Shown here: in pieces, positions 7,784 to 64,000 of the stretch
How the letters are laid out: the number at the start of each line of letters is the position of its first letter
Position numbering within the stretch: the first letter of the stretch is position 1
Source: Sandaracinus amylolyticus
GTDB lineage: Bacteria; Myxococcota_A; Polyangia; Polyangiales; Sandaracinaceae
Length of the DNA: 64,000 nucleotides
Reading direction: 5' to 3'
NCBI RefSeq assembly: GCF_000737325.1
Contig: NZ_CP011125.1
Coordinates: forward strand, 744,001 to 808,000
Translations under genes and position numbers: made by a program
Notes under the pieces: generated by a model
Told to the model about the DNA's origin: nothing
Databases searched by the model: none
The model's input: the letters and a program-made list of their open reading frames with translations, nothing else

Positions 7784-9853
7784 TCATCGATAGAGGTGCG
7801 GGAACACCTCGTCGCGCAGGAACGCGTAGACCTCGCGATCCTGGCGCACGTGGCGGAAGTCGTCTTCGTTGTCGAACTGCACCACCGGGAGTTCGCGGAT
7901 CTCCGGCATCCAACACGTGTGCAGCGTGTACGGCCAGGGCAGCATCTCGTGGCCCTTCCGCCGGAGCTTGCAGAGCGGCTTTCGCAGGCTCATCGCGTCG
8001 AAGATCCAGATCTCCTTGCTCGTGTCGGTGAACACGTTGCAGATCAGGAAATCGCGACCCTCGGTGCCGGGCACGAATTGCGGAGAGATGATCACCGCGC
8101 CCGGAGGCATCTTGCAGAAGTCGACGACTCGATTCCGCACGGTGTCGAATCGGCAGACCGTCGCCGCGGTGCCGCCGCTCTTCGCGAGCTCGAGCATCTT
8201 CTTCGGCGTGACGATCGGGCTCGGACGCTTCGAGTAGAGATCGAAGACGAGCTGCGAGAGCAGGCTCGGGATGAACCCGTGCGCGTAGAAGAACACGCAC
8301 GCATCGATCTCTCTCTGCGGCCTCGGTCCGTTGGGCTCGCCCGTGCCGCGCGTGACCGGCTTGCCGTCGCGCCACATCGGGAAGTCGGGCGCAGTGATCA
8401 GGCCGATGCCGAACGTGTGATCGAAGTTGTGCTCCGCAGTCTTGCGCCGGACGATCCCCGTCTTCGGATCGAGCTGCAGGCACGCGAAGTCGTTGAGATC
8501 CATCGGCGCCGAGAGGCCACCGATCGCCTCGCGCGGGATCTTCCGCGTCGGGTCGACCTGCTGCAGATCGCTGTCGGTCACGAACTCCGCCGCATCGCTC
8601 GAGCGCTGATCCGCGACGTGCATGACGATGCGACCGTCGTGGAGCTCGTAGTTCGTGAAGAAGTGGACGATCTCGCCGTCGAGCGAGCCCGAGACGACGC
8701 GCACCTCGTCCACGCCCGCGCGCAGATCCGCGCGCTTCACGATGTACACGGGAGTCGGCCGCGGCTGCGGCTTCGAGAGCCAGCCGCGGAGCGCACGCTC
8801 GAGGTCCGCGTCACCGCCCGCGAGCCGCGACCAGAGCTGATCGACTTCGAACTTGAACCCCGTGTCGACCACGAGGATGTAGTCCTTCGTGAGGCCCACT
8901 TGATGCGACGAGTGGAGGATCTCGATCGGATTGCCGTCCTCGTCGACGAGCTTCCATTTGTCGACCTTCCCGGCGTCGTCCACGCGCATCACGTACGTCG
9001 CGCGCTTCGGCCGATCGGCGACGATCATGCTGTGGAGCAGATCGATCGCGCGCCTCACGAGCTCGACGCGGCGCCCGAGATCGACCGGACCGAACCGGCC
9101 CAGCCCTTCCATCTCGAGCCCGTCGAGCAGCGCGAGCATCTCGAGCGGATTGCCCACCGGCAGATCGAAGGGCCCGAAGCTCGGAAGCCACTGCAGCAGT
9201 CGCCGCAGCAGCGTCTCCGCGTCTCGGACGAAGTTGACGGTGAAGAGCTCGCGCGTGATCGGGTCGTACGCGGGATGCGCGCTCGAATTCGTGAACGGGA
9301 ACGGATGATCGACCATCAACGTGCCCTTCCAATCGGCGTTGGTGCCGATCGGGCGCACGGTGCGGAGCGTCACCGGATCGATCTCGAAAGGGCGCCCCGC
9401 GTCGTACGTCGCGAGGAGCCGATGGGGATCACCGGCGTTCTTCGGCGGAATCGCGAGCAACGCAGTGTTCGCGAAATTGCGCCCGCCGAGATAGCTGATC
9501 GAGATGCGCGCGATTCCGTAATTCGCGAATCGCCAATCCTTGCGCGATTCGTCGTTCGCTAGGATCCGATCCGCGATGTGGCAGGGAGTCTCGATGGGAC
9601 GCGACGAGAGCGTCACGTCACCGCCCTTCGCGCCGGGGAAACTGACGCGGAACACGAATCCGTCGCCGTTGAGGAATGGAGTGTTGTCCGAGCGCTGACT
9701 CGGGCTCTCGTGCTCCATGTCGCCCACGGCGGCATTCGCGAACACGTGGCCTTCGAGATCGCTCGGCAGCTGGCCTTCGAACACCTCGAGCGCTTCGTTC
9801 GCGACGGGCACGCGGCTCGAGATCAACGCCGTCTTCGGGAACCAGTACGTCAT
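7784..9853 (-). CDS. Carotenoid oxygenase (RPE65/CCD family)
   Basis: 689 residues from an ATG preceded by AGGAG. Family landmarks appear in order: NGDGFVFRVSF near residue 60, then four iron-ligand histidine regions, SAHPAYDP (about 190), ILHSSHQVGL (about 315), HFFTNYE (about 385) and LHTCWMPE near the C terminus. These enzymes use non-heme iron held by four histidines to cleave carotenoids or apocarotenoids (some members cleave stilbenes). At 689 residues it is longer than typical bacterial members (about 480-500), with insertions in the middle. It stands alone, convergent with the kinase gene. Substrate and cleavage site cannot be read from sequence. No signal peptide is evident. Confidence 0.85.
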   Translation of the reverse strand: MTYWFPKTALISSRVPVANEALEVFEGQLPSDLEGHVFANAAVGDMEHESPSQRSDNTPFLNGDGFVFRVSFPGAKGGDVTLSSRPIETPCHIADRILANDESRKDWRFANYGIARISISYLGGRNFANTALLAIPPKNAGDPHRLLATYDAGRPFEIDPVTLRTVRPIGTNADWKGTLMVDHPFPFTNSSAHPAYDPITRELFTVNFVRDAETLLRRLLQWLPSFGPFDLPVGNPLEMLALLDGLEMEGLGRFGPVDLGRRVELVRRAIDLLHSMIVADRPKRATYVMRVDDAGKVDKWKLVDEDGNPIEILHSSHQVGLTKDYILVVDTGFKFEVDQLWSRLAGGDADLERALRGWLSKPQPRPTPVYIVKRADLRAGVDEVRVVSGSLDGEIVHFFTNYELHDGRIVMHVADQRSSDAAEFVTDSDLQQVDPTRKIPREAIGGLSAPMDLNDFACLQLDPKTGIVRRKTAEHNFDHTFGIGLITAPDFPMWRDGKPVTRGTGEPNGPRPQREIDACVFFYAHGFIPSLLSQLVFDLYSKRPSPIVTPKKMLELAKSGGTAATVCRFDTVRNRVVDFCKMPPGAVIISPQFVPGTEGRDFLICNVFTDTSKEIWIFDAMSLRKPLCKLRRKGHEMLPWPYTLHTCWMPEIRELPVVQFDNEDDFRHVRQDREVYAFLRDEVFPHLYR

Positions 9854-23902: not shown

Positions 23903-24520
23903 GTGACCGAGGACCCGCCCGTCGACGAGCCCCAGCGCGAGAAGAACCGCTCCGAGCGTCGCGCGGCGCTCGTCTCCGCCGCGTACGCGCTGTTCGCCGA
24001 GCGTGGCTACGCCGCGACCACGATGGACGACGTCGCGCAGGCCGCGGGGCTCTCGCGGCGCACCGCGTTCCGCTACTTCGCGACCAAGGAAGCGCTGGTC
24101 TTCCCCGAGCGCGACGATCGCCTCGTGCTGCTCGCCGACGCGCTCGTCGCGCGCGAGCACGAGACGCCGTTCGAGACCGTGCGTCGCGCCTGCCTCGCGC
24201 TCGCGCGCCGCTACCAGGACGAGCGCGATCGCATGCTCGCGCAGCACCGCCTCGTGCAGTCCGAGCCCGCGCTGATCGGGCGCGAGCTCCAGCTCGATCG
24301 TGCGTTCGAGGAGCAGCTCGAGCAGGCGTTCGCGCGCGGCGAGCGCGACACCTCGCGCGGCAAGCGTCGCGCCCGAGTGCGTGCATCCGCGGTGATCGGC
24401 GCGGTGCGCGCGAGCCTTCGCGAGTGGCTCGAGGGCGGTGCGAGCACGGACCTCGTGCGGCTCGGTCGCGAGACGTTCGCCGAGCTCGAGCAGGGCTTCG
24501 GAGGAGGGGGAGAGCAGTGA
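23903..24520 (+). CDS. TetR family transcriptional regulator
   Basis: 205 residues from GTG 23903; an ATG-initiated frame at 23855 would place the start inside the operator and is rejected. The N-terminal HTH is clear: AALVSAAYALFAERGYAATT, DDVAQAAGLSRRTAFRYFAT and KEALVF. The C-terminal helical ligand domain is typical but its ligand is unknown. The stop overlaps the GTG of the lyase gene (GTGA), so regulator and enzymes are translationally linked. The mirrored operators just upstream strongly suggest it represses its own operon until a ligand, perhaps a lipid-derived compound, releases it. Confidence 0.92.
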   Translation: MTEDPPVDEPQREKNRSERRAALVSAAYALFAERGYAATTMDDVAQAAGLSRRTAFRYFATKEALVFPERDDRLVLLADALVAREHETPFETVRRACLALARRYQDERDRMLAQHRLVQSEPALIGRELQLDRAFEEQLEQAFARGERDTSRGKRRARVRASAVIGAVRASLREWLEGGASTDLVRLGRETFAELEQGFGGGGEQ

Positions 24521-25953
24521 AGATTCCGTCGACCGGCCGCAGCAGCGGCGAGATCATCGAGGCGCTCGAGAACTACCGCGAGCGCGACGTGCCATGGCGC
24601 GAGGGGCGCGCGTTCGGCTACGTGTTCGACGCGAAGCACGACGCGCTCGATCTCGGCAAGCGCGCGTACCTGATGTTCCTCTCGGAGAACGGCCTCGACC
24701 CCACGTCGTTCCCGAGCCTCCTGCGCCTCGAGAACGAGGTCGTGCGCATGTGCGCGACCCACGTGCACGGCGACGAGCGCGTCGTCGGCAACTTCACGAG
24801 CGGCGGCACCGAGTCGATCATGCTCGCGGTCAAAGCGGCGCGTGATCGCGCGCGCGTGCTGCGCCCCGAGCTCACGCGACCGCAGATGCTCGTGCCCGTC
24901 ACCGCGCACGCTGCGTTCCACAAGGCCGCGCACTACCTCGACGTCGAGATCGTCGCGTTCCAGGTCGATCCCACGACGTTCCGCGCCGACGTCTCCGCCG
25001 CGCGCGCCGCGATCACCGATCGCACGATCATGCTCGTCGGCTCCGCTCCGTCGTACGCGCACGGCGTGATCGATCCGATCGAGGCGCTCGCCGCGCTCGC
25101 GGTCGAGCACGACCTCTGGATGCACGTCGACGGATGCATGGGCGGGCTCCTGCTGCCGTACCTCGAGCGGCTCGGTGACACCGTCCCGCGCTTCGACTTC
25201 CGGGTGCCGGGTGTGTCGAGCCTCTCGATGGACCTGCACAAGTACGGCTACTGCCCGAAGGGCGCGAGCGTCGTGCTCTATCGCGATCGCTCGCTGCGCA
25301 AGCACCAGCTCTACGCGTGCAGCGAGTGGACGGGCTACACGATCGTCAACGCGACGATCCAGAGCAGCAAGAGCGGCGGCCCGCTCGCCGGCGCGTGGGC
25401 GACGATGATGCGCATGGGCGACGACGGCTATCTGCGCATCGCGAAGGAGATGCGCGACGCGACGCGCCGCTACGCCGAGGGCATCGACGCGATCCCCGGG
25501 CTGCGCGTGATGGCCGAGCCCGACATGACGCTGATCGCGTTCACGAGCGACGAGGTGCCGATCTTCGTGATCGCCGACCTCATGAAGAAGCGCGGCTGGT
25601 ACGTGCAGCCGCAGCTCGGGTTCGCGGGGCATCGCGAGAACCTGCACCTCTCGATCACCCACGCGAACGTGCCGCACGTCGACGCGTTCCTCGTCGATCT
25701 GCGTGCGTGTGTCGACGAAGCGCGCGCGCTGCCGAACGGCGACGGCGCGATGGTCGCGGGCATCGCACAGGCCGCGGCCTCGATCGATCCCGCGACGCTC
25801 GACGAGGCGACGTTCGCGCAGCTGCTCGCGGCCGCTGGCACCTCGGTCGGAGTCCCCGAGGAGAGCGCGTCGATCAACACCATCCTCCAGGCGCTCCCGC
25901 GCCCGCTCACCAAGGCGATCCTCATCCACTACGTGAACCAGCTCTTCGCATGA
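24517..25953 (+). CDS. PLP-dependent lyase, sphingosine-1-phosphate-lyase-like
   Basis: 478 residues from GTG 24517 behind GGAGGAGG. A group II PLP decarboxylase-fold enzyme: NFTSGGTESIMLAVKAARDR, TAHAAFHKAAHYL (PLP-stacking His), HVDGCMGGLLLP (Asp to pyridine nitrogen) and SMDLHKYGYCPKG with the Schiff-base Lys (about residue 243). The HKYGYCPKG signature matches sphingosine-1-phosphate lyases more than glutamate or tyrosine decarboxylases. Those enzymes split long-chain base phosphates into phosphoethanolamine and a fatty aldehyde. It is sandwiched between TetR and a creatininase-like gene with overlaps on both sides. Activity on sphingoid bases is inferred; another carbon-carbon lyase or decarboxylase activity is possible. 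Confidence 0.85.
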   Translation: MKIPSTGRSSGEIIEALENYRERDVPWREGRAFGYVFDAKHDALDLGKRAYLMFLSENGLDPTSFPSLLRLENEVVRMCATHVHGDERVVGNFTSGGTESIMLAVKAARDRARVLRPELTRPQMLVPVTAHAAFHKAAHYLDVEIVAFQVDPTTFRADVSAARAAITDRTIMLVGSAPSYAHGVIDPIEALAALAVEHDLWMHVDGCMGGLLLPYLERLGDTVPRFDFRVPGVSSLSMDLHKYGYCPKGASVVLYRDRSLRKHQLYACSEWTGYTIVNATIQSSKSGGPLAGAWATMMRMGDDGYLRIAKEMRDATRRYAEGIDAIPGLRVMAEPDMTLIAFTSDEVPIFVIADLMKKRGWYVQPQLGFAGHRENLHLSITHANVPHVDAFLVDLRACVDEARALPNGDGAMVAGIAQAAASIDPATLDEATFAQLLAAAGTSVGVPEESASINTILQALPRPLTKAILIHYVNQLFA

Positions 25954-26918
25954 CGACGCCGCTGATCCGCGAGTGGGCCGACCTGCGCGGCCCCGACATC
26001 GCCGCGCTCGATCGCGCGCGCACCGTCGTGATCCTGTCGTGCTCGCCGCTCGAGGTGCACGGTCCGCATCTTCCCGTGCAAGCCGATCTGCGCGAGGCCG
26101 AGGGGCTCGTCGCGCGCACCGCCGAGCTGCTCCACGCGAAGCACCCCGAGATGACGTTCGTGCGCCTGCCCTGGGTGTGGATGGCGGCGGACGTGTTGCC
26201 GCACGTCGGCTCGATCAAGTTCCGCCCCGAGACCGTCGCGCAGGTGCTCGCGGAGATCGGCGAGAGCCTCGGGCGACAGGGCTTCCGCCACGTCTGGGTC
26301 GGCAGCTTCCACGGCGGTCCGCGCCACATCCTCGCGCTCGAGAAGGGCGCTCACGACGCGCACCGTCGCACCGGCGTCGGGATGGTTTCCGTCTTTTCGT
26401 TGCTGGTCAAACGATTGACGGGAGGCAGCTCGGATCTCGCGACGCTGCTCGGTGGCATCGGCGGCATCACGCGCGAGGAGCTGAAGGGCGACTCGCACGG
26501 CGGGCTCGTGGAGACGTCGCTCCTGCTGCACCTCGTCGGACAGCACGTCGACCCCGCGTATCGCTCGCTGCCGCCGCGCTCGATCGAGCTCGACCTCGTC
26601 GAGCGCGGTCTGCCTCCGATGCAGAAGGGCGAGAAGGCGACGTTCGTCGAGCTGCTGCGCAGCCTGCCGCTCAAGCAGCAGTACTACGAGCGCGAGACGT
26701 ACGCGGGCGCGCCCGCGAGGGCGAGCGCGGAGCTCGGCGCGCAGTACCTCGACGTGCTCGCGACCGAAGCGGCAGCCGCGCTCTCCGAGCTCTGGACCGG
26801 ACGCATCGGCCCGGCGGACTGCCACTCTCCGCTCTGGCCGCTCCGTCACCTGCTGATGAACGACACGTTCGGCCGCGTGTTCGATCGCGTCGTGCGCACG
26901 CGCGAGTCACCGGTCTGA
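25950..26918 (+). CDS. Creatininase family amidohydrolase
   Basis: 322 residues from ATG 25950, overlapping the lyase stop (ATGA). Metal-site motifs of the creatininase family are present: PLEVHGPHLPVQAD (Glu and His ligands, about 34-47), SFHGGPRH (about 117-124) and DSHGGLVETS (about 185-194). Family members hydrolyse cyclic or linear amides (creatinine, formamides) with a binuclear zinc or manganese centre. It is the third gene of the TetR operon, so it probably acts on a product or substrate related to the lyase; no specific compound can be named. An 11-bp hairpin spans its stop codon. Confidence 0.85.
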   Translation: MTTPLIREWADLRGPDIAALDRARTVVILSCSPLEVHGPHLPVQADLREAEGLVARTAELLHAKHPEMTFVRLPWVWMAADVLPHVGSIKFRPETVAQVLAEIGESLGRQGFRHVWVGSFHGGPRHILALEKGAHDAHRRTGVGMVSVFSLLVKRLTGGSSDLATLLGGIGGITREELKGDSHGGLVETSLLLHLVGQHVDPAYRSLPPRSIELDLVERGLPPMQKGEKATFVELLRSLPLKQQYYERETYAGAPARASAELGAQYLDVLATEAAAALSELWTGRIGPADCHSPLWPLRHLLMNDTFGRVFDRVVRTRESPV

Positions 26919-26926: not shown

Positions 26927-26932
26927 CGCGCT

Positions 26933-27346
26933 TCACACGCCGCCCGCGACGGAACGACCGGCACCGTCGTTCCATCGCACGAGGATCCAGTACGTCTTTC
27001 CGAGCAACGCGCGCTTCATGTGCACGCGGACCTGCCGCGGTCTCATCTTGTAGTCGAACACGTAGTCGAAGACCGCGCTGGGGCCGCCCTTCACGAGCTC
27101 GAGGAAGCGCCCGTAGAACTCGGGGCGACGCGTGCACGGCGCGACCTCGTCGAAGAAGAGCCGCCCGATCACGCTCTCGACGGCACGCCCACTGAGCTTC
27201 GACTCGGTCGCGTTGTACTGCAGGATGCGCCCGTTCGCGTCGAGCTCGATCGCGCCGAACGGCAGCTCGTCGAGCTGCGACGGCGGGAGCTTCGCGAGCA
27301 CGTTCGCGACGTCGTCCTGGTCGAAGCTCAGTCTCGTGAACTCCAT
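26933..27346 (-). CDS. pyp: Photoactive yellow protein (PYP), blue-light sensor
   Basis: 137 residues from ATG 27346 behind GGAGG. It aligns over nearly its whole length with Halorhodospira PYP: FGAIELDANGRILQYNATES, VAPCTRRPEFYGRF, VFDYKMRPRQVRVHMKRAL. Cys71 (Cys69 in the reference) would bind the p-coumaroyl chromophore. Tyr44, Glu48 and Arg54 match Tyr42, Glu46 and Arg52; Thr50 is replaced by Ser52; Met101 matches Met100. A 12-residue tail is extra. It is a stand-alone PAS domain with no fused output. It lies 39 bp after the fasciclin gene in the same direction. Chromophore-making genes are not in the window. Confidence 0.95.
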   Translation of the reverse strand: MEFTRLSFDQDDVANVLAKLPPSQLDELPFGAIELDANGRILQYNATESKLSGRAVESVIGRLFFDEVAPCTRRPEFYGRFLELVKGGPSAVFDYVFDYKMRPRQVRVHMKRALLGKTYWILVRWNDGAGRSVAGGV

Positions 27347-27385
27347 CGTCGTCCCTCCGCTCGACGAGCGCTCGGGCTCGTTCCT

Positions 27386-28759
27386 TCAGGGCAGCATCAC
27401 GGTGTCGATCACGTGGACCACGCCGTTGGTCACGACGATGTCGGCGATCACGATCTCCGCGCCGTCGACCGTCGCAGGAGGACCCGGCACGAACGGGATG
27501 TCCGCGCCGTTCAGCGTCTCCAGGCCGGTCGCGGTGGTGGGCAGCTCCGTCGAGAGCACGGGCGAGTCGAAGCTGTCCGTGCTCAGCACGTGATAGAGGA
27601 GCACGTCGCGCAGGGTGTCGGCGTCAGGCGTGGGGCTCAGCGCGGCGAACGCATCGTTCGTCGGCGCGAACACCGTGTACGGCGCGTCGGCCGCCAGCGC
27701 GTCGGCGACGCTGGTGCCGCCCGGCAGATCGGCCGCTGCCTCGACCGCGCCGAGCAATCCCGTGAGCCCCGCCGCGCTCGCGGCTTGCACGACGTTCATC
27801 GGCGTGATCACCGCGTCGACGACGTGGACGACGCCGTTCGTCGCACGCAGGTCCGCGATGACCACCTCGGCCGCGCCGTTGATCACGACACCGTCGCCGT
27901 CGTCGAAGAGCAGCGTGAGCGGGTCACCGTACGAGCTCTCGGCGAGCGACGACGCGCGCGCGGGGATCGCGCTCGACGCGACGCTCCCCGACACGACGTG
28001 ATGGAGCAACACCGTGGTGAGCGCGCCGCCGGAGGGCAGCGCGCCGAGCGCGCTGAACGCCGCGTTCGTGGGCGCGAACACCGTGAACGGACCGGCCGCC
28101 TCGAGATCGTCGACGAGCTCCTGCGACGCGAGCGCGCCCGCGAGCGTGGTGAGGCCCGCGTATCGCGCGACGTCCGCGACGGTCGGCGGGACCAGCACGC
28201 GATCGATCACGTGGATGACTCCGTTGCTCGCAGCGATGTCCGCGGTCGTCACGTTCGCTCCGCCGTCGACGCCGTTGCCGCCGTTGATCGTGACCGTCGC
28301 GCCGGTGCCGACGAACACCGGCAACGTCGACACCGTCGTCGCGGGACCGTCCTCCAGCTCGCTCGACGTCACCGTGCCGCTCAGCGCGTGATAGGTGAGG
28401 ATGCCCGCGAGCGTCTCGGGGCCGAGCGCCTCGACCGCCGCGATCGCTGCCGCCTCGTCCGCGACGTCGAGGAGCGCGACGAACGCTGCGTCGGTCGGCG
28501 CGAACACGGTGAACTCCGCAGTGCCCGAGAGCGTATCGACGAGCCCGGCGCGCGACGCCGCGGCGACGAGCACGTCGAAGTCGTCGCTCGCTGCTGCGAT
28601 GTCCGCGATCGTGTCGCCGCTGCCCGCGTCGGTGCCCGCGTCGGCTCGGCCCGCGTCGGAGTCTCCGCCGCCGTCGTCGTCACCGCACGCCCAGAGCCCT
28701 CCGAGCACGAGGGCCAGCAGCGCGGCCCTCGGCGCTCGCTTCGAAAGCAGAAGCGTCAT
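27386..28759 (-). CDS. Lipoprotein with three fasciclin (FAS1) domains
   Basis: 457 residues from ATG 28759 behind GGAGG. Lipoprotein signal LALVLGGLWACGDD, then an Asp/Gly/Ala linker. Three FAS1 repeats follow, each with the H1 motif (EFTVFAPTDAAF, PFTVFAPTNAAF, PYTVFAPTNDAF) and the H2 motif ending NGVIHVIDRVL, NGVVHVVDAVI and NGVVHVIDTVM. Such proteins mediate adhesion at the cell surface. It is the upstream gene of a short pair with PYP. A 9-3-9 dyad lies 78 bp upstream of its start. Confidence 0.93.
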   Translation of the reverse strand: MTLLLSKRAPRAALLALVLGGLWACGDDDGGGDSDAGRADAGTDAGSGDTIADIAAASDDFDVLVAAASRAGLVDTLSGTAEFTVFAPTDAAFVALLDVADEAAAIAAVEALGPETLAGILTYHALSGTVTSSELEDGPATTVSTLPVFVGTGATVTINGGNGVDGGANVTTADIAASNGVIHVIDRVLVPPTVADVARYAGLTTLAGALASQELVDDLEAAGPFTVFAPTNAAFSALGALPSGGALTTVLLHHVVSGSVASSAIPARASSLAESSYGDPLTLLFDDGDGVVINGAAEVVIADLRATNGVVHVVDAVITPMNVVQAASAAGLTGLLGAVEAAADLPGGTSVADALAADAPYTVFAPTNDAFAALSPTPDADTLRDVLLYHVLSTDSFDSPVLSTELPTTATGLETLNGADIPFVPGPPATVDGAEIVIADIVVTNGVVHVIDTVMLP

Positions 28760-28836
28760 GTTCGTTTCCTCCCGCCGGGCGTCGTCCGCCCCGCGTGCAC
28801 GGGGCATTGGATCGACGCCGATGCGGGTCAAGACTG

Positions 28837-28857
28837 TGTCCAGATAAAATCTGGACA
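28837..28857. promoter_or_regulatory. 9-3-9 inverted repeat upstream of the fasciclin-PYP pair
   Basis: TGTCCAGAT (28837-28845), AAA, ATCTGGACA (28849-28857) is a perfect AT-leaning dyad in otherwise GC-rich DNA. It lies 78 bp upstream of the fasciclin gene and 115 bp past the acylase stop on the same strand. It could be an operator for fasciclin-PYP or the terminator of the acylase gene; on the minus strand the loop reads TTT but no U run follows the second arm. I favour an operator. Confidence 0.5.
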
Positions 28858-28972
28858 GTCGGCGATCGATACGGAAACTGACGTGGCACCGCCGTACGCG
28901 TACAGCCGCTCGAGCGGCTGCGCGCGTCATCGGTCTGGCGCCGTCGACGCCGCCGTGCTTTTTGCGCGGGCG

Positions 28973-31525
28973 CTACTGCGGCGAGAGCGTCATGCGCTCG
29001 TGCTCGCCGGCCTCGATGTCGCTGCGCCGGAACCGCAGCGGCCGGTACACGTTCTCGATCCAGTCCGTGTGCAGGTCGCTCCAGTGCGCGCTCTCGGGGT
29101 CACCGCTGACACCGCGCGGCACGTTCACGAACGCCTCCGGCGTGCCGTCGTCACCGAAGGTCGCGACGAGCCGGTAGATCGATCCGCTGCTCGCCTCGAG
29201 GCGCTCGCGCGGCGCGTCGCCGTCGCCGAAGAAGTCGGTGACCGACACGTTCACCGTGCCCTCGGCGCCGTCGGTCGCGACCCAGCCACCATCGAGCCGC
29301 TCGCCGTAGAGCGACGGGAAGCGCGTGCCGTGCACGTCGCCCCAGGTGTACGAGCCTCCGGGGAACCGCTCGGCGAGCCACGCCGCGGTCTCGTCGAGCG
29401 CGCGCACCACCGACACGCTTCGCGCCTCGCCGGCGAAGAAGCTCTCGCTGTCGGGCGCGCGCCCGCGCAGCACGTTCGACAGCCACTTGAAGATGAACGC
29501 GCTCGACTCGCTCATCACCGCGTCGAACACGATCGTCATGTCGTCGGCGAGCACGCGCTGCGCGAGGAAGTACGAGAACGCGTTGAGCACCACCGCTTCG
29601 CTCGAGGTGCGCTCCATGCGGCGATCCCACGCGGCGAGCGACACGACGAGCGCGTCGAGGTCGTCGCGACCGCGCCACTCCGCGAGCGCGTCGTCGGTCT
29701 CGACCGTCGCCCAGACCTCTTCGAGCACCGGCACGAGATCGTCCGCGATGATCGAGTGCGTGTCGTCCTGCAGGACCTGCATGTCCTCGACCGTCACGTC
29801 GCCGCGCGCGATCAGCCGCTCGAGCTCCTGCTCGATGCGCGCCGCGCGCAGGCCGGGATCGTAGAGCACGCCGAAGTACCAGGGATCGGTGTCGACGCGA
29901 CCGTCCGCGACGAACCCGAAGGGATCGTTGTTCGCGGAGGTGATCCAGCCGCGCGCGCCGCCGGTGCTGCTCGGCATTCGCGCGCGATCGAGCCAACGAT
30001 CGCGCCAGAACGTCGACGCGTCGTCGCCGTCGGAGAGCGCCCACGGGCGTCGCGCGCCGATCACACCGCGGTCGGGCACGAGCGGCTGCGAGTGGTACCG
30101 GATGCCGTTCGCGTCGGCGAAGACGAAGTTGAAGTAGCCGAGCTCCACACCCTCGACCGCCGCGGCGAACTCGTCGGTGTCGCGCGCGGTGCCGAACCCG
30201 AAGAATCCTTCGAATTCGTGGGTCACTCGCAGGCCCGTCCAGTTGACGAGGAGACGACGCCCCGGGCGCCCGAGCGGCAGCGGCGAGAGGCCGCTCGGCA
30301 GCAGCACGCCGTGGCCCGGCACGTCCTCCACGACGTACTCGACCGTGTTCGCGCCCGCGACCGCGATGGTCTCGGTGCGCGTGACGATCGCGACCTCCTC
30401 GTCGCCGATCATCACGCCGCCGCCCGGGCCGATCGCGACGTCCCACACGTCCATGTTGTCCGGGTACGTCGTCGTCGCGGTCCACGCGACGTGTCGGTTG
30501 TGACCGAGCTGCACCCCGGGTGAGCCCACGAAGTTGAAGCCCACCACGTCGAGCGCGCCGCCGGCGTCCGCGCTGTTCATGTGGTGCAGCCAGAAGAGCG
30601 AGGGCGACTGCAGCGGCTGGTGCGGGTCGCCCGCGATCAGCGGCCGTCCGTTCGCGGTGTGGCGACCGTCGAGCGCCCAGTTGTTGCTCCCGCCGCTGCG
30701 GAAGTCGGCCATCGTCGACTGGAAGCGCGCGATGCGCTCGAGCGCGTCGGGCGGCAGCGCGCGCGGCGTGCGCGGCGCGCTCGGACGCACGATCGCGCGC
30801 GCGGTCGCAGGGCGCTCGTCGGGCGGCATCACGTACGCATCGCGGATCGGCAGGAGCAGACCGAGCCGCCCGTCGAGCTCCGGCAGGTACTCGTCGAGGA
30901 TCGCGCTGAGGATGCTCGACTCGAGCTGGTTCGCGTTCCCGAAGAGCACGAGCTTGCCGAACGCGAACGCATCGACGGGCGTCCACTCCTCGGGCTCGTA
31001 GCCGAGCTCTTCGAACTCGGGCGGCAGCTGCGATCGATCCGCGAGCACCTCGCGGATGCGCGCGTTCACGCCCTCGGTCCACGCCTGCACCAGCGCCCAG
31101 CGCTCCGGGTCGTCGCGGAAGAGCGCGGCCTCGTTGGTGCGCGCCCAGCGCGGCAGATCGAAGAGCCGCGAGAGCTCGTCCTCGTCGACGTACGACTCAC
31201 CGAGCACCTCGGCGCGACGACCGAGCGCGCGCCGGCGGTTGAGGTCCATCTGCAGCAGGCGATCGAACGCCTGCATGTAGCCCGACGCGTAGAACGCATC
31301 GCGATCGCTCTGCGCGTAGACGTGCGCGACGCCCATGTCGTCGCGCAGGATCGCGACCTCGTCGTCGAGCCCCGCGAACGTCGGCCGCTCGTCGGGCGTG
31401 CATCCGGGGAGCAGCGGATCGGCGTCGCACTGCGCTTCGGTGGGCGGCGCGACGCGCGTGTCGTCACCGCAGCCGCCGAGCAGCGCGAGCGCCAGAGCGA
31501 ACCGAGCGATCGAATGGCGTTCCAC
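28973..31525 (-). CDS. Penicillin acylase family (Ntn-hydrolase) lipoprotein
   Basis: 850 residues from GTG 31525, chosen because GGAGG precedes it by five bases; a GTG at 31543 is possible. Lipoprotein signal LALALLGGCGDD. The alpha chain contains ILRDDMGVAHVYAQSDRDAF. The autocatalytic cleavage site is visible as GGSNNWALDGRHTANGRPLI (Ser nucleophile near residue 270), followed by AGDPHQPLQSPSLFW and HNRHVAWTATTTYPDNMDV, all typical of the family. Processing would give alpha and beta chains. Relatives cleave amide bonds of beta-lactams or acyl-homoserine lactones; the substrate is unknown. An exported, membrane-tethered location is inferred from the lipobox. Confidence 0.9.
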   Translation of the reverse strand: MERHSIARFALALALLGGCGDDTRVAPPTEAQCDADPLLPGCTPDERPTFAGLDDEVAILRDDMGVAHVYAQSDRDAFYASGYMQAFDRLLQMDLNRRRALGRRAEVLGESYVDEDELSRLFDLPRWARTNEAALFRDDPERWALVQAWTEGVNARIREVLADRSQLPPEFEELGYEPEEWTPVDAFAFGKLVLFGNANQLESSILSAILDEYLPELDGRLGLLLPIRDAYVMPPDERPATARAIVRPSAPRTPRALPPDALERIARFQSTMADFRSGGSNNWALDGRHTANGRPLIAGDPHQPLQSPSLFWLHHMNSADAGGALDVVGFNFVGSPGVQLGHNRHVAWTATTTYPDNMDVWDVAIGPGGGVMIGDEEVAIVTRTETIAVAGANTVEYVVEDVPGHGVLLPSGLSPLPLGRPGRRLLVNWTGLRVTHEFEGFFGFGTARDTDEFAAAVEGVELGYFNFVFADANGIRYHSQPLVPDRGVIGARRPWALSDGDDASTFWRDRWLDRARMPSSTGGARGWITSANNDPFGFVADGRVDTDPWYFGVLYDPGLRAARIEQELERLIARGDVTVEDMQVLQDDTHSIIADDLVPVLEEVWATVETDDALAEWRGRDDLDALVVSLAAWDRRMERTSSEAVVLNAFSYFLAQRVLADDMTIVFDAVMSESSAFIFKWLSNVLRGRAPDSESFFAGEARSVSVVRALDETAAWLAERFPGGSYTWGDVHGTRFPSLYGERLDGGWVATDGAEGTVNVSVTDFFGDGDAPRERLEASSGSIYRLVATFGDDGTPEAFVNVPRGVSGDPESAHWSDLHTDWIENVYRPLRFRRSDIEAGEHERMTLSPQ

Positions 31526-31624
31526 CAGGACCTCCACGGGCACGCAAGTGACCGACGGTCAGCGTACGAGATCGCCTGGTGGTCGAAGTGGCCAATCGGA
31601 GCTGCCGCACGAAGCGCTCGTGGA

Positions 31625-32005
31625 TCAGCGGAACGGGCCGGATCCCTCGGGCGGCTTGGGCGGGCCTTCGGCGACGCGCACCGAGGGATGGTCGAGCGGG
31701 ATCTCCTCGATGCGCGCCACGTACCACTCCGCGAGCCCGCACTGCCGGCACACGTAGACGACGAACTGACCGAGCGCCTTCTGCTCGAGGAAGCCCGGTT
31801 GGATCAGCGGCGCGAGCGCCTCGATCGCGCCCTGCGAGCGGTCCGCGATGCGCTCGATGCGCAGCACCGAGCGGTGATCACAGACGGGACAGCGCCGGTG
31901 GATGCGCAGTGACGTGCGTCCGGGCGCGCCCTGCTCCGCGAGCGCGTCGAGACGCGCCCGCAGCGACTCGATCTCCCGCTCCAGCTCCGCGATGCGATCG
32001 TGCAT
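31625..32005 (-). CDS. Small coiled-coil zinc-ribbon protein
   Basis: 126 residues. Residues 1-25 form a short heptad-rich helix (IAELEREIESLRARLDALAE). Then CPVCDHR (about 39) and VCRQCGLA (about 86) give two CX2C knuckles, likely one zinc site. The C terminus is Pro-rich. No known family is recognised. It sits between the penicillin acylase and Cys-rich lipoprotein genes on the same strand, 9 bp downstream of the latter. Confidence 0.65.
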   Translation of the reverse strand: MHDRIAELEREIESLRARLDALAEQGAPGRTSLRIHRRCPVCDHRSVLRIERIADRSQGAIEALAPLIQPGFLEQKALGQFVVYVCRQCGLAEWYVARIEEIPLDHPSVRVAEGPPKPPEGSGPFR

Positions 32006-61339: not shown

Positions 61340-62509
61340 ATGGCCCGCATCGATCTCACCAGCGCCCGCACGTCCGAGCGAGACCCCGAGCGCGCCGCCG
61401 AGGCGCTCCTCACCTCGCTCGGCTCGGTCACCCCGAAGCTCGTCACGGTCTTCGCCTCGAGCGACCGCGACCACCGCGCCCTCAACGCGGCGCTCCGCGC
61501 GCGCCTGCCTCGCGGCACGCGCATCATCGGCGCGAGCACCGCCGGCGAGATCGATCGCGACGGCATCCACGACGGCACCGTCGTCCTCTCCGCGCTCACC
61601 GGCGACTTCGACGTCGCGCTCGGCCTCGGCGCCGACCTCTCCGCCGACGCGATCGGCGCCGGCGCGCGCGCGATGCAGCGCGCCTGCGACGAGCTCGGCG
61701 TGCGCCCCCAAGAGCTCGACCCCCGCCGCCACGTCGGCCTCGTCATCGACGACGGCTTCCGCTTCAAGAAGGAAGAGCTCCTCCTCGGCGTCCTCGATCG
61801 CAACCCCGCGCTCACGCTCGTCGGCGGCGGCGCCAACTGCGCCGAGTCCGATCCCGCGAAGCAGTCTGCGGTGCTCCACGTCGACGGCGAGGTCGTCACC
61901 GACGCCGCCGTGTTCGCGCTGTTCCGCACCAGCGCGCCGTGGGCCGCGCTGCGCTCGCACTGGTATCGCCCGACCGGCGAGACGCTCCGCATCACCAAGA
62001 TCGACGAGACCTGCACGCGCGCGCTCGAGATCGACGGCAAGCCCGCCGCGAAGCGCTACGCCGAGCTCCTCGGCGTGACCGTCGACGATCTCGAGTTCGG
62101 CAAGCCCGGCGGCTTCGCGCGGCGTCCCACCGCGCTCAAGGTCGGCCGCGAGCACTTCATCCGCGCCCCGTGGAAGCCGCTCGACGACGGCTCGATCCTC
62201 TTCGCGAACCTCATCGACGAGGGCGTCGAGCTCGAGCTCATGCAGCTCGACGATCTCGCCGCGTCCACGCAGCGCTTCTTCGAAGAAGAGCTCCCGCGTC
62301 GCGTCGGCGGCGATCCCACCGCCGCGCTCCTCTTCCACTGCACCGCGCGCGACTGGTACGCGAAGGGCAAGGGCGAGCACGCCGCGCTCTCGAAGGCGTT
62401 CACGAAGGCCCCGCCCTCCGCGGGCCTCAACGTGTTCTTCGAGATCTACTCGGGGTTCCAGATCAACACGACGCTCACCGCGCTCGCGTTCGGGAAGAAC
62501 GATGACTGA
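61340..62509 (+). CDS. FIST domain sensor protein
   Basis: 389 residues from ATG 61340 with AGGAG seven bases upstream. The FIST N domain covers about 30-230 (LVTVFASSDRDH, IIGASTAGEI, GLVIDDGF, LVGGGANCAESD) and the FIST C domain follows (IDETCTRALEIDGKPAAKRY to the end, with GFQINTTLTALAFG). FIST proteins are predicted small-ligand sensors that pair with histidine kinases or cyclases. Here the stop overlaps the start of a histidine kinase gene by eight bases, so it is almost certainly that kinase's input partner. No membrane segment; the ligand is unknown. Confidence 0.92.
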   Translation: MARIDLTSARTSERDPERAAEALLTSLGSVTPKLVTVFASSDRDHRALNAALRARLPRGTRIIGASTAGEIDRDGIHDGTVVLSALTGDFDVALGLGADLSADAIGAGARAMQRACDELGVRPQELDPRRHVGLVIDDGFRFKKEELLLGVLDRNPALTLVGGGANCAESDPAKQSAVLHVDGEVVTDAAVFALFRTSAPWAALRSHWYRPTGETLRITKIDETCTRALEIDGKPAAKRYAELLGVTVDDLEFGKPGGFARRPTALKVGREHFIRAPWKPLDDGSILFANLIDEGVELELMQLDDLAASTQRFFEEELPRRVGGDPTAALLFHCTARDWYAKGKGEHAALSKAFTKAPPSAGLNVFFEIYSGFQINTTLTALAFGKNDD

Positions 62510-64000
62510 GAGCGCACGCCGCGTGCTGATCGTCGCCACGCCCGACGTGGCGTCGCTCGTCACCTCCGAGCTCGCGCGCGCCGAGCTCCACGTCACCACC
62601 GACACGGTCTCCACCGCCGACGCGTTGATCGCCGCGCTCGCCGATCCGCCCGACGCGATCGTCGTCTCGCTCGCGACGCTCGACGCGCCCGCCGCGCGCC
62701 ACGCGTGGAGCTCGCGCGGCCTGTCGATCCCGATGATCGCGCTCGCTCCCGCGCACGACGATCGCGAGATGCGCGACGCGATGATCCGCGGCGGCGCGCT
62801 CGACTACGTGAGCCTCGATCAGCTCGCGCGCCTCGGGCCCGCGCTGCTCCGCGAGCTCTCGCGCGCCGCGGGCCGAGCGAAGGACTGGCCCGCGCCCGAG
62901 GCCACCTCGGCCTCGCTGGTCCAGGCGATCGTCGACAACATGCCGTTCGTCCTCTTCGTGAAGGACGCGGACGAGCTGCGCCTGCGCGTCGTCAACCAGC
63001 TCATGGTCGACTTCATGGGCATCCCGCGCGAGCAGCTGCTCGGGAAGCTCGACCACGAGTACCTCCCGCCCGAGCAGGCCGACGCGTTCGCCGCCGACGA
63101 TCGCGCGGTGCTCGCGAGCGATCAGGTGACGATCAAGGACGAGGTCGCGCGCGCCAACGGCGTCGACCTGTGGTGGCGCACCCGCAAGGTGCCGATCACC
63201 GATCGCGATGGTCGTCGCTACGTGATGGGCGTGACCGAGGAGGTGACCCAGCGTCGCCAGGCCGAGGAAGCGCTGCGCGAAGCGAACCGTCGCCTCGAAG
63301 CGAGCCTCGAGGAGCTCAAGAAGTCGCGCGCGGTCTCGGCCCGCACCCTCGCGAGCTATCAGCAGCGCGCGCTGCAGATGGAGATCATCCGCCAGCAGAA
63401 CGAAGATCTCGATCGCCTCGCGCAGGACCTCGCGAAAGCGAAGCGCATCGAGGAAGAGCGCGCCCGCGAGATCGAGTCCGCCGCGCGCCTCAAGAGCGAA
63501 TTCCTCGCGAATTTCTCGCACGAGATTCGCACCCCGCTGAACGGCATCCTCGGCTACTGCGATCTCCTGATGCGCGAAGAGGGCTCGCGCCTCACGCCGC
63601 ACGGACGACGCGACCTCAACGTCGTCAAAGCGAACGCGAAGGCGCTGCTCGGCCTGATCAACGACATCCTCGATCTCTCGAAGATCGAGTCCGGCCACGT
63701 CGACGTCGTGCGCGAGCAGGTCGAGCTGCGCCCGCTCGTCGACGAATGCATCGCGACGGTGCGCGAGTACGCGCAAGGCAAGCAGGTCGAGATCTACGCA
63801 ACCATCCCGCCCGAGCTCGACACGATCGACACCGACGGGCTCAAGCTCCGTCAGATCCTCCTCAACCTGCTCTCGAACGCGGCGAAGTTCACGGAGGCGG
63901 GCGAGGTCGTCGTCGACGTGAAGCGCGAGGCGGACACCCTCGTGCTCTCGGTGGAGGACACCGGCGCGGGCATCCCGCCCGATCAGCTGCCGTTCGTGTT
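62502..64000 (+). CDS. Hybrid-type sensor histidine kinase, 3' end outside window
   Basis: Starts at ATG 62502 within the FIST gene's end; about 499 residues are visible and the frame continues off the window. N-terminal receiver-like domain (about 1-120: RRVLIVATPDVASLVTSEL, ending GGALDYVSLDQL) in which the phosphoacceptor position reads VVSLATLD, so it looks like a pseudo-receiver. A PAS domain follows (about 135-245: SLVQAIVDNMPFVLFVKDAD), then a coiled coil (about 250-330), HisKA with FSHEIRTPLNGILGY (His near 340) and the ATPase N box LLNLLSNAAKF. A response-regulator domain may lie downstream. Cytoplasmic; input is probably from the FIST protein. Confidence 0.93.
   Translation, partial: MTESARRVLIVATPDVASLVTSELARAELHVTTDTVSTADALIAALADPPDAIVVSLATLDAPAARHAWSSRGLSIPMIALAPAHDDREMRDAMIRGGALDYVSLDQLARLGPALLRELSRAAGRAKDWPAPEATSASLVQAIVDNMPFVLFVKDADELRLRVVNQLMVDFMGIPREQLLGKLDHEYLPPEQADAFAADDRAVLASDQVTIKDEVARANGVDLWWRTRKVPITDRDGRRYVMGVTEEVTQRRQAEEALREANRRLEASLEELKKSRAVSARTLASYQQRALQMEIIRQQNEDLDRLAQDLAKAKRIEEERAREIESAARLKSEFLANFSHEIRTPLNGILGYCDLLMREEGSRLTPHGRRDLNVVKANAKALLGLINDILDLSKIESGHVDVVREQVELRPLVDECIATVREYAQGKQVEIYATIPPELDTIDTDGLKLRQILLNLLSNAAKFTEAGEVVVDVKREADTLVLSVEDTGAGIPPDQLPFV

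Follow-up and report, generated by a model that had tools for sequence, protein, structure and literature searches.

A gene of Sandaracinus amylolyticus encodes a true and very probably working photoactive yellow protein (PYP). The gene, pyp, occupies positions 26933 to 27346 on the minus strand of the window, the 64,000-nucleotide stretch of DNA analysed here, and runs from an ATG at 27346 to a stop at 26933, giving 137 amino acids. Taken as a whole, the explanation that we find rather probable is that this is a true PYP of gammaproteobacterial type, carried on a variable segment, whose chromophore is provided in trans by a pigment pathway.

Several comparisons identify the product as an ordinary member of the PYP family. 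It passes the cut-off of the NCBIfam profile TIGR02373 photo_yellow (153.5 bits against 143.05; E 2.7e-45), matches PYPs of the PDB over residues 6-124 in a phmmer search (E 5e-40), and is identical to H. halophila PYP at 62 of 124 positions (50%). The nearly full-length match that the first-pass annotation had reported is thereby borne out, as is its description of a free-standing photoreceptor, since the protein is a single domain with no fused output domain. No obvious export signal was found on it. The AlphaFold model (pLDDT 89) has the PYP fold with its N-terminal cap and superposes on the solved PYP 2qj7 at 1.3 Å over 122 residues with a Z score of 22.6, while other PAS proteins reached Z 13.6 and below. 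The family-defining residues Cys69, Tyr42 and Glu46 (PMC9664959) are present as Cys71, Tyr44 and Glu48, Cys71 being the chromophore cysteine. At the gene level, GGAGG stands just 5' of the ATG and codon usage is normal for the window; a scan for sigma-70 promoters around pyp found nothing.

The first-pass annotation implied that a PYP in a myxobacterium is a surprise, which does not hold. PYP in Myxococcota is already known and well documented: in published surveys no phylum has a larger share of genomes with a PYP, and PYP has been proposed to have originated there (PMC9664959), it accounts for 9.7% of PYP homologs (PMC12826048), and 39 of the 377 Myxococcota genomes that we sampled carry one at a threshold of E 1e-20 or better. 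For a Myxococcota copy, the window PYP resembles the laboratory model protein to an unusual degree. It alone passes the TIGR02373 cut-off among the 377 genomes, and it has the most complete H. halophila-type set of pocket residues among the Myxococcota sequences compared. Its nearest sequences (56, 53, 52, 52, and 49% identity) belong to the class of a Rubrivivax genome, which is Gammaproteobacteria in GTDB; H. halophila PYP, at 50%, is likewise among the nearest, and two Myxococcota PYPs are also 52% identical to it.

Phylogenetic analysis gave a similar placement. Other Myxococcota PYPs (clade A of PMC9664959) share the phylum and, like the window PYP, retain Cys69 and Glu46, but the window PYP groups instead with gammaproteobacteria. 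It stood beside a gammaproteobacterial clade in the first tree (support 98/57), and the grouping with gammaproteobacteria had a support of 99/88 when four long branches were removed. Uniting the sampled Myxococcota PYPs in a single group was rejected (p-AU 0.0004), and so was a grouping of the window PYP with the two 52%-identical Myxococcota sequences (p-AU 0.004). On these sequence comparisons, the window pyp is classed as a gammaproteobacterial-type gene. It has probably been exchanged between bacteria, in a direction that the thin sampling of Pseudomonadota (369 genomes, 7 matches) does not fix. Elsewhere in the Myxococcota sample, one genome has two different PYP genes or domains near each other (G003, L016 1474-2465), and two genomes have three PYP matches each.

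The window pyp differs from the pyp-pCL-TAL operon of H. halophila in having no linked ligase or tyrosine ammonia lyase (TAL). Neither enzyme is encoded beside pyp, where the neighbours are FAS1, penicillin acylase, and creatininase genes, or among the window genes scanned, in agreement with the first-pass annotation. In the sister clade, all five gammaproteobacterial pyp loci inspected have a ligase adjoining pyp, and in three of the five the stretch read also has a lyase. Across published pyp operons, which contain TAL in 5% and the ligase in 32% of cases, unlinked TAL and ligase genes are the rule (PMC12826048). The first-pass annotation had suggested that the enzymes lie elsewhere or that another source is used, and had proposed a genome search. 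This search returned a candidate lyase (P0004) and a candidate ligase (P0005) elsewhere on the chromosome, far outside the window. Both score below curated cut-offs, and the choice between the two options is still one that we infer.

Genome-wide, only two aromatic lyases were found. One is a HutH, which exceeds its cut-off and has the motifs NLVRSH and ED. The other is P0004 (9810878 to 9812437 of the contig, minus strand), with the MIO motif GSVGASGDLTP, the NQD motif of TAL/PAL (YNQDKVSMG), and NLVRYH, a TAL-like combination. At the position of His89 in Rhodobacter TAL, P0004 has Tyr, as does the TAL of S. clavuligerus (PMC8773403). All four P0004-type copies read from this family, P0004 included, have this Tyr, and those read from other families in the phylum have Phe instead. 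P0004 remains below the cut-off of every curated model that it matched (BagA_FevW, 416 of 1000 bits; FlxA, 310 of 700 bits). Judged by its motifs, P0004 is a putative non-HutH aromatic ammonia-lyase of tyrosine-lyase-like character. It is surrounded by genes for a glycosyltransferase, an acyltransferase, a thioesterase, LolA, an MMPL transporter, and DUF3261.

With a threshold of E 1e-15, P0005 (9659387 to 9660808 of the contig, minus strand) is the genome's only match to TIGR02372, the profile of the PYP-type 4-coumarate ligase. Its score of 126 bits is below the cut-off of 334.7, and TIGR02372 is still its best family match. Compared with a gammaproteobacterial ligase encoded beside pyp, it shows 31% identity over 308 amino acids. 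Its neighbours are two ketosynthase-type genes, an FAD-dependent oxidoreductase, and an acyl carrier protein (ACP). In six relatives, one contiguous cluster brings together the genes for lyase, ligase, ACP, glycosyltransferase, acyltransferase, and LolA, and in the stretches read, MMPL was present in five and ketosynthases in four. Because of this contiguity, we take P0004 and P0005 to be partners in one aryl-polyene-type pathway. We checked for ketosynthases, ACP, AMP ligase, acyltransferase/glycosyltransferase, thioesterase, LolA, MMPL transporter, and DUF3261, and found the aryl-polyene gene set spread over two loci; the pathway is known here from its genes. Relatives both within and outside the family have the cluster in one piece, whereas it is split in this genome (L045 10757-16809 and L005 1313-11144), with about 150 kb between the parts here and about 220 kb in a sister strain. 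The gene set around P0004, P0005, and their counterparts in relatives resembles the ape cluster of E. coli (PMC8253772) and the FlxA/FlxY flexirubin cluster of Chitinophaga, from which the clusters of this genus differ in being split in two parts, with no pyp inside. Flexirubin biosynthesis begins with TAL and 4-coumarate-CoA ligase (PMC3992019), ApeH-type enzymes have been described as acyl-ACP synthetases and not CoA ligases (PMC8253772), and S. amylolyticus has been described as pigment-forming (PMC5010890). UbiC, searched for as an alternative source of the aryl-polyene starter, was not found in the genome, so 4-hydroxybenzoate made by UbiC is not the pigment starter.

If the motif-based reading of P0004 is right, a p-coumaroyl thioester is available in the same cell. 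P0004 would make p-coumarate from tyrosine, P0005 would activate it, and the aryl-polyene-type pathway would deliver the p-coumaroyl thioester to apo-PYP in trans; the substrates of both enzymes are predicted. We give even chances to the proposal that PYP owes its chromophore to this supply in trans from the pigment pathway. A more specific version, which we advance tentatively, is that pyp moved without its chromophore genes and now borrows the p-coumaroyl thioester, possibly at the ACP stage, from an outer-membrane pigment pathway. Our literature search found no paper treating both PYP and aryl polyenes.

A general coupling of PYP with aryl-polyene lyases across the phylum was considered and rejected, as the two do not co-occur beyond chance. 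PYP (39 carriers) and a P0004-type lyase (69 carriers) share three of the 377 Myxococcota genomes (odds ratio 0.34, p 0.08), in a count that left out four 39%-identical matches that proved HutH-like. The supply link is therefore one that we infer for this genome. Of the other 38 Myxococcota with a PYP, at least 24 have either no lyase at all or only lyases of HutH type, and outside uptake or another route must therefore be common. A lyase lies near pyp in four Myxococcota genomes. Neighbouring pairs of aromatic ammonia-lyases were also observed in seven PYP-carrying genomes. There must be several chromophore routes in Myxococcota, probably including uptake.

Uptake may also apply to S. amylolyticus itself. 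The PYP would then be a working one loaded with p-coumarate obtained from prey or plant debris, the cell's own acyl-CoA ligase would suffice, and the aryl-polyene lyase would be irrelevant. This agrees with the number of carriers that have HutH-type lyases or none, with the suggestion of p-coumarate uptake for PYP (PMC12826048), and with the isolation of the type strain from soil with plant residues (PMC5010890). However, this genome, unlike most such carriers, has a TAL-like non-HutH lyase and a related ligase, and we regard uptake as a somewhat unlikely explanation here.

The pyp gene belongs to a 4.7-kb variable segment (26932 to 31620) that is absent at the same place in a sister strain. 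From its far end, the segment encodes a penicillin-acylase family protein (PF01804; 28973 to 31537), a FAS1 (fasciclin) protein with three repeats and an N-terminal lipoprotein-like signal (27386 to 28759), and PYP, all on the minus strand. Both flanks are conserved and lie outside the PYP system. The left one (23903 to 26918, plus strand) encodes a TetR regulator, a PLP-dependent decarboxylase, and a creatininase, and the right one (31625 to 32005, minus strand) a 126-amino-acid protein with no Pfam match. Between the sister strain and the window, identity is 93% on the left (up to 26931) and 87% on the right (from 31621), and in place of the PYP segment the sister strain has 4.0 kb of unrelated genes. 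This replacement segment (G353, L092 2824-6856) includes genes for a 633-amino-acid protein with an ATPase-like N-terminus and a 195-amino-acid protein. No PYP was found in the sister strain or in a third genome of the genus at E 1e-5. The two strains by themselves fit either gain or loss, and the tree favours a gain of the segment here by transfer. Foreign composition was rejected as a sign of transfer, as it gave no clear signal: total GC of pyp is 2.6 sd low, and its third-position GC and codon score are normal. Given this native codon usage, any transfer either happened some time ago or had a similar genome as its source.

The FAS1 stop codon and the pyp start are 39 bp apart, and the two genes are probably co-transcribed. 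One could imagine that PYP and the FAS1 protein together bring about light-controlled adhesion, with either source of chromophore; the short distance on one strand and the blue-light PYP effects on Idiomarina biofilm cited in PMC12826048 would agree with it. We consider it improbable, given that the FAS1 protein is predicted to reside in the envelope while PYP lacks an obvious export signal, that the other PYP loci examined yielded no FAS1 gene, and that the two genes may have come together by chance in one inserted segment. Further away in the window, two other loci were noted. One (7784 to 9853, minus strand) encodes a carotenoid-oxygenase/RPE65-like protein (PF03055), whose family has retinal-forming and lignostilbene-cleaving members. 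The other (61340 to 63998, plus strand) encodes a FIST sensor-domain protein and then, with an overlap of 8 bp, a PAS histidine kinase.

The window PYP was compared with H. halophila PYP at 37 positions, of which only 47, 49, 50, and 99 differ (Gly47Ser, Ile49Leu, Thr50Ser, and Gln99Lys); the first three are the only changes in an otherwise retained chromophore pocket. Cys71, Tyr44, Glu48, Arg54, Met101, and Ser52 of the window PYP align with Cys69, Tyr42, Glu46, Arg52, Met100, and Thr50, so that every residue named by the first-pass annotation, including the change of the pocket Thr to Ser, was correctly assigned. Both proteins are full-length and single-domain, and their pockets have Cys69, Tyr42, Glu46, Arg52, Phe96, Asp97, Tyr98, Met100, and Trp119 in common. 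Unlike the H. halophila protein, the window PYP has Ser at positions 47 and 50, Leu at 49, and a C-terminal tail some 12 residues long. With Ser47 and Leu49 it follows the consensus of the family (PMC12826048). The two PYPs with Ser50 whose absorbance has been measured absorb at 432-434 nm (PMC12826048), and because Ser replaces Thr50, the absorbance maximum of the window PYP should, as predicted from its sequence, be nearer 434 nm than 446 nm. That the protein is an apo or repurposed PYP, which keeps the fold but binds another ligand or none and senses no light, is highly improbable: the chromophore genes are unlinked to pyp and loss of chromophore binding has been proposed for homologs lacking Cys69 (PMC9664959), but here Cys69, Tyr42, Glu46, Arg52, Phe96, Tyr98, and Met100 are all retained.

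With a working PYP as the preferred reading, the thioester-activated p-coumaroyl group would attach to Cys71. Blue light would then isomerise the bound trans-p-coumarate in the predicted photocycle, Glu48 would donate a proton to the chromophore, and the protein would partly unfold into a signalling state that acts on some presumed partner.

Beyond a routine family assignment, the analysis brings out a gammaproteobacterial affinity, a presence/absence polymorphism, and a proposed source for the missing chromophore that can be tested. Surveys find TAL in about 5% of operons with pyp and leave the chromophore source of most PYPs open. This genome, a single contig of 10,327,335 bases with one PYP, one non-histidine lyase, and one related ligase, offers a compact test case, and the presence or absence of the PYP segment between sister strains provides a natural comparison of light responses. 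If supply by the pigment pathway is true, light sensing and pigment synthesis would draw on one metabolite.
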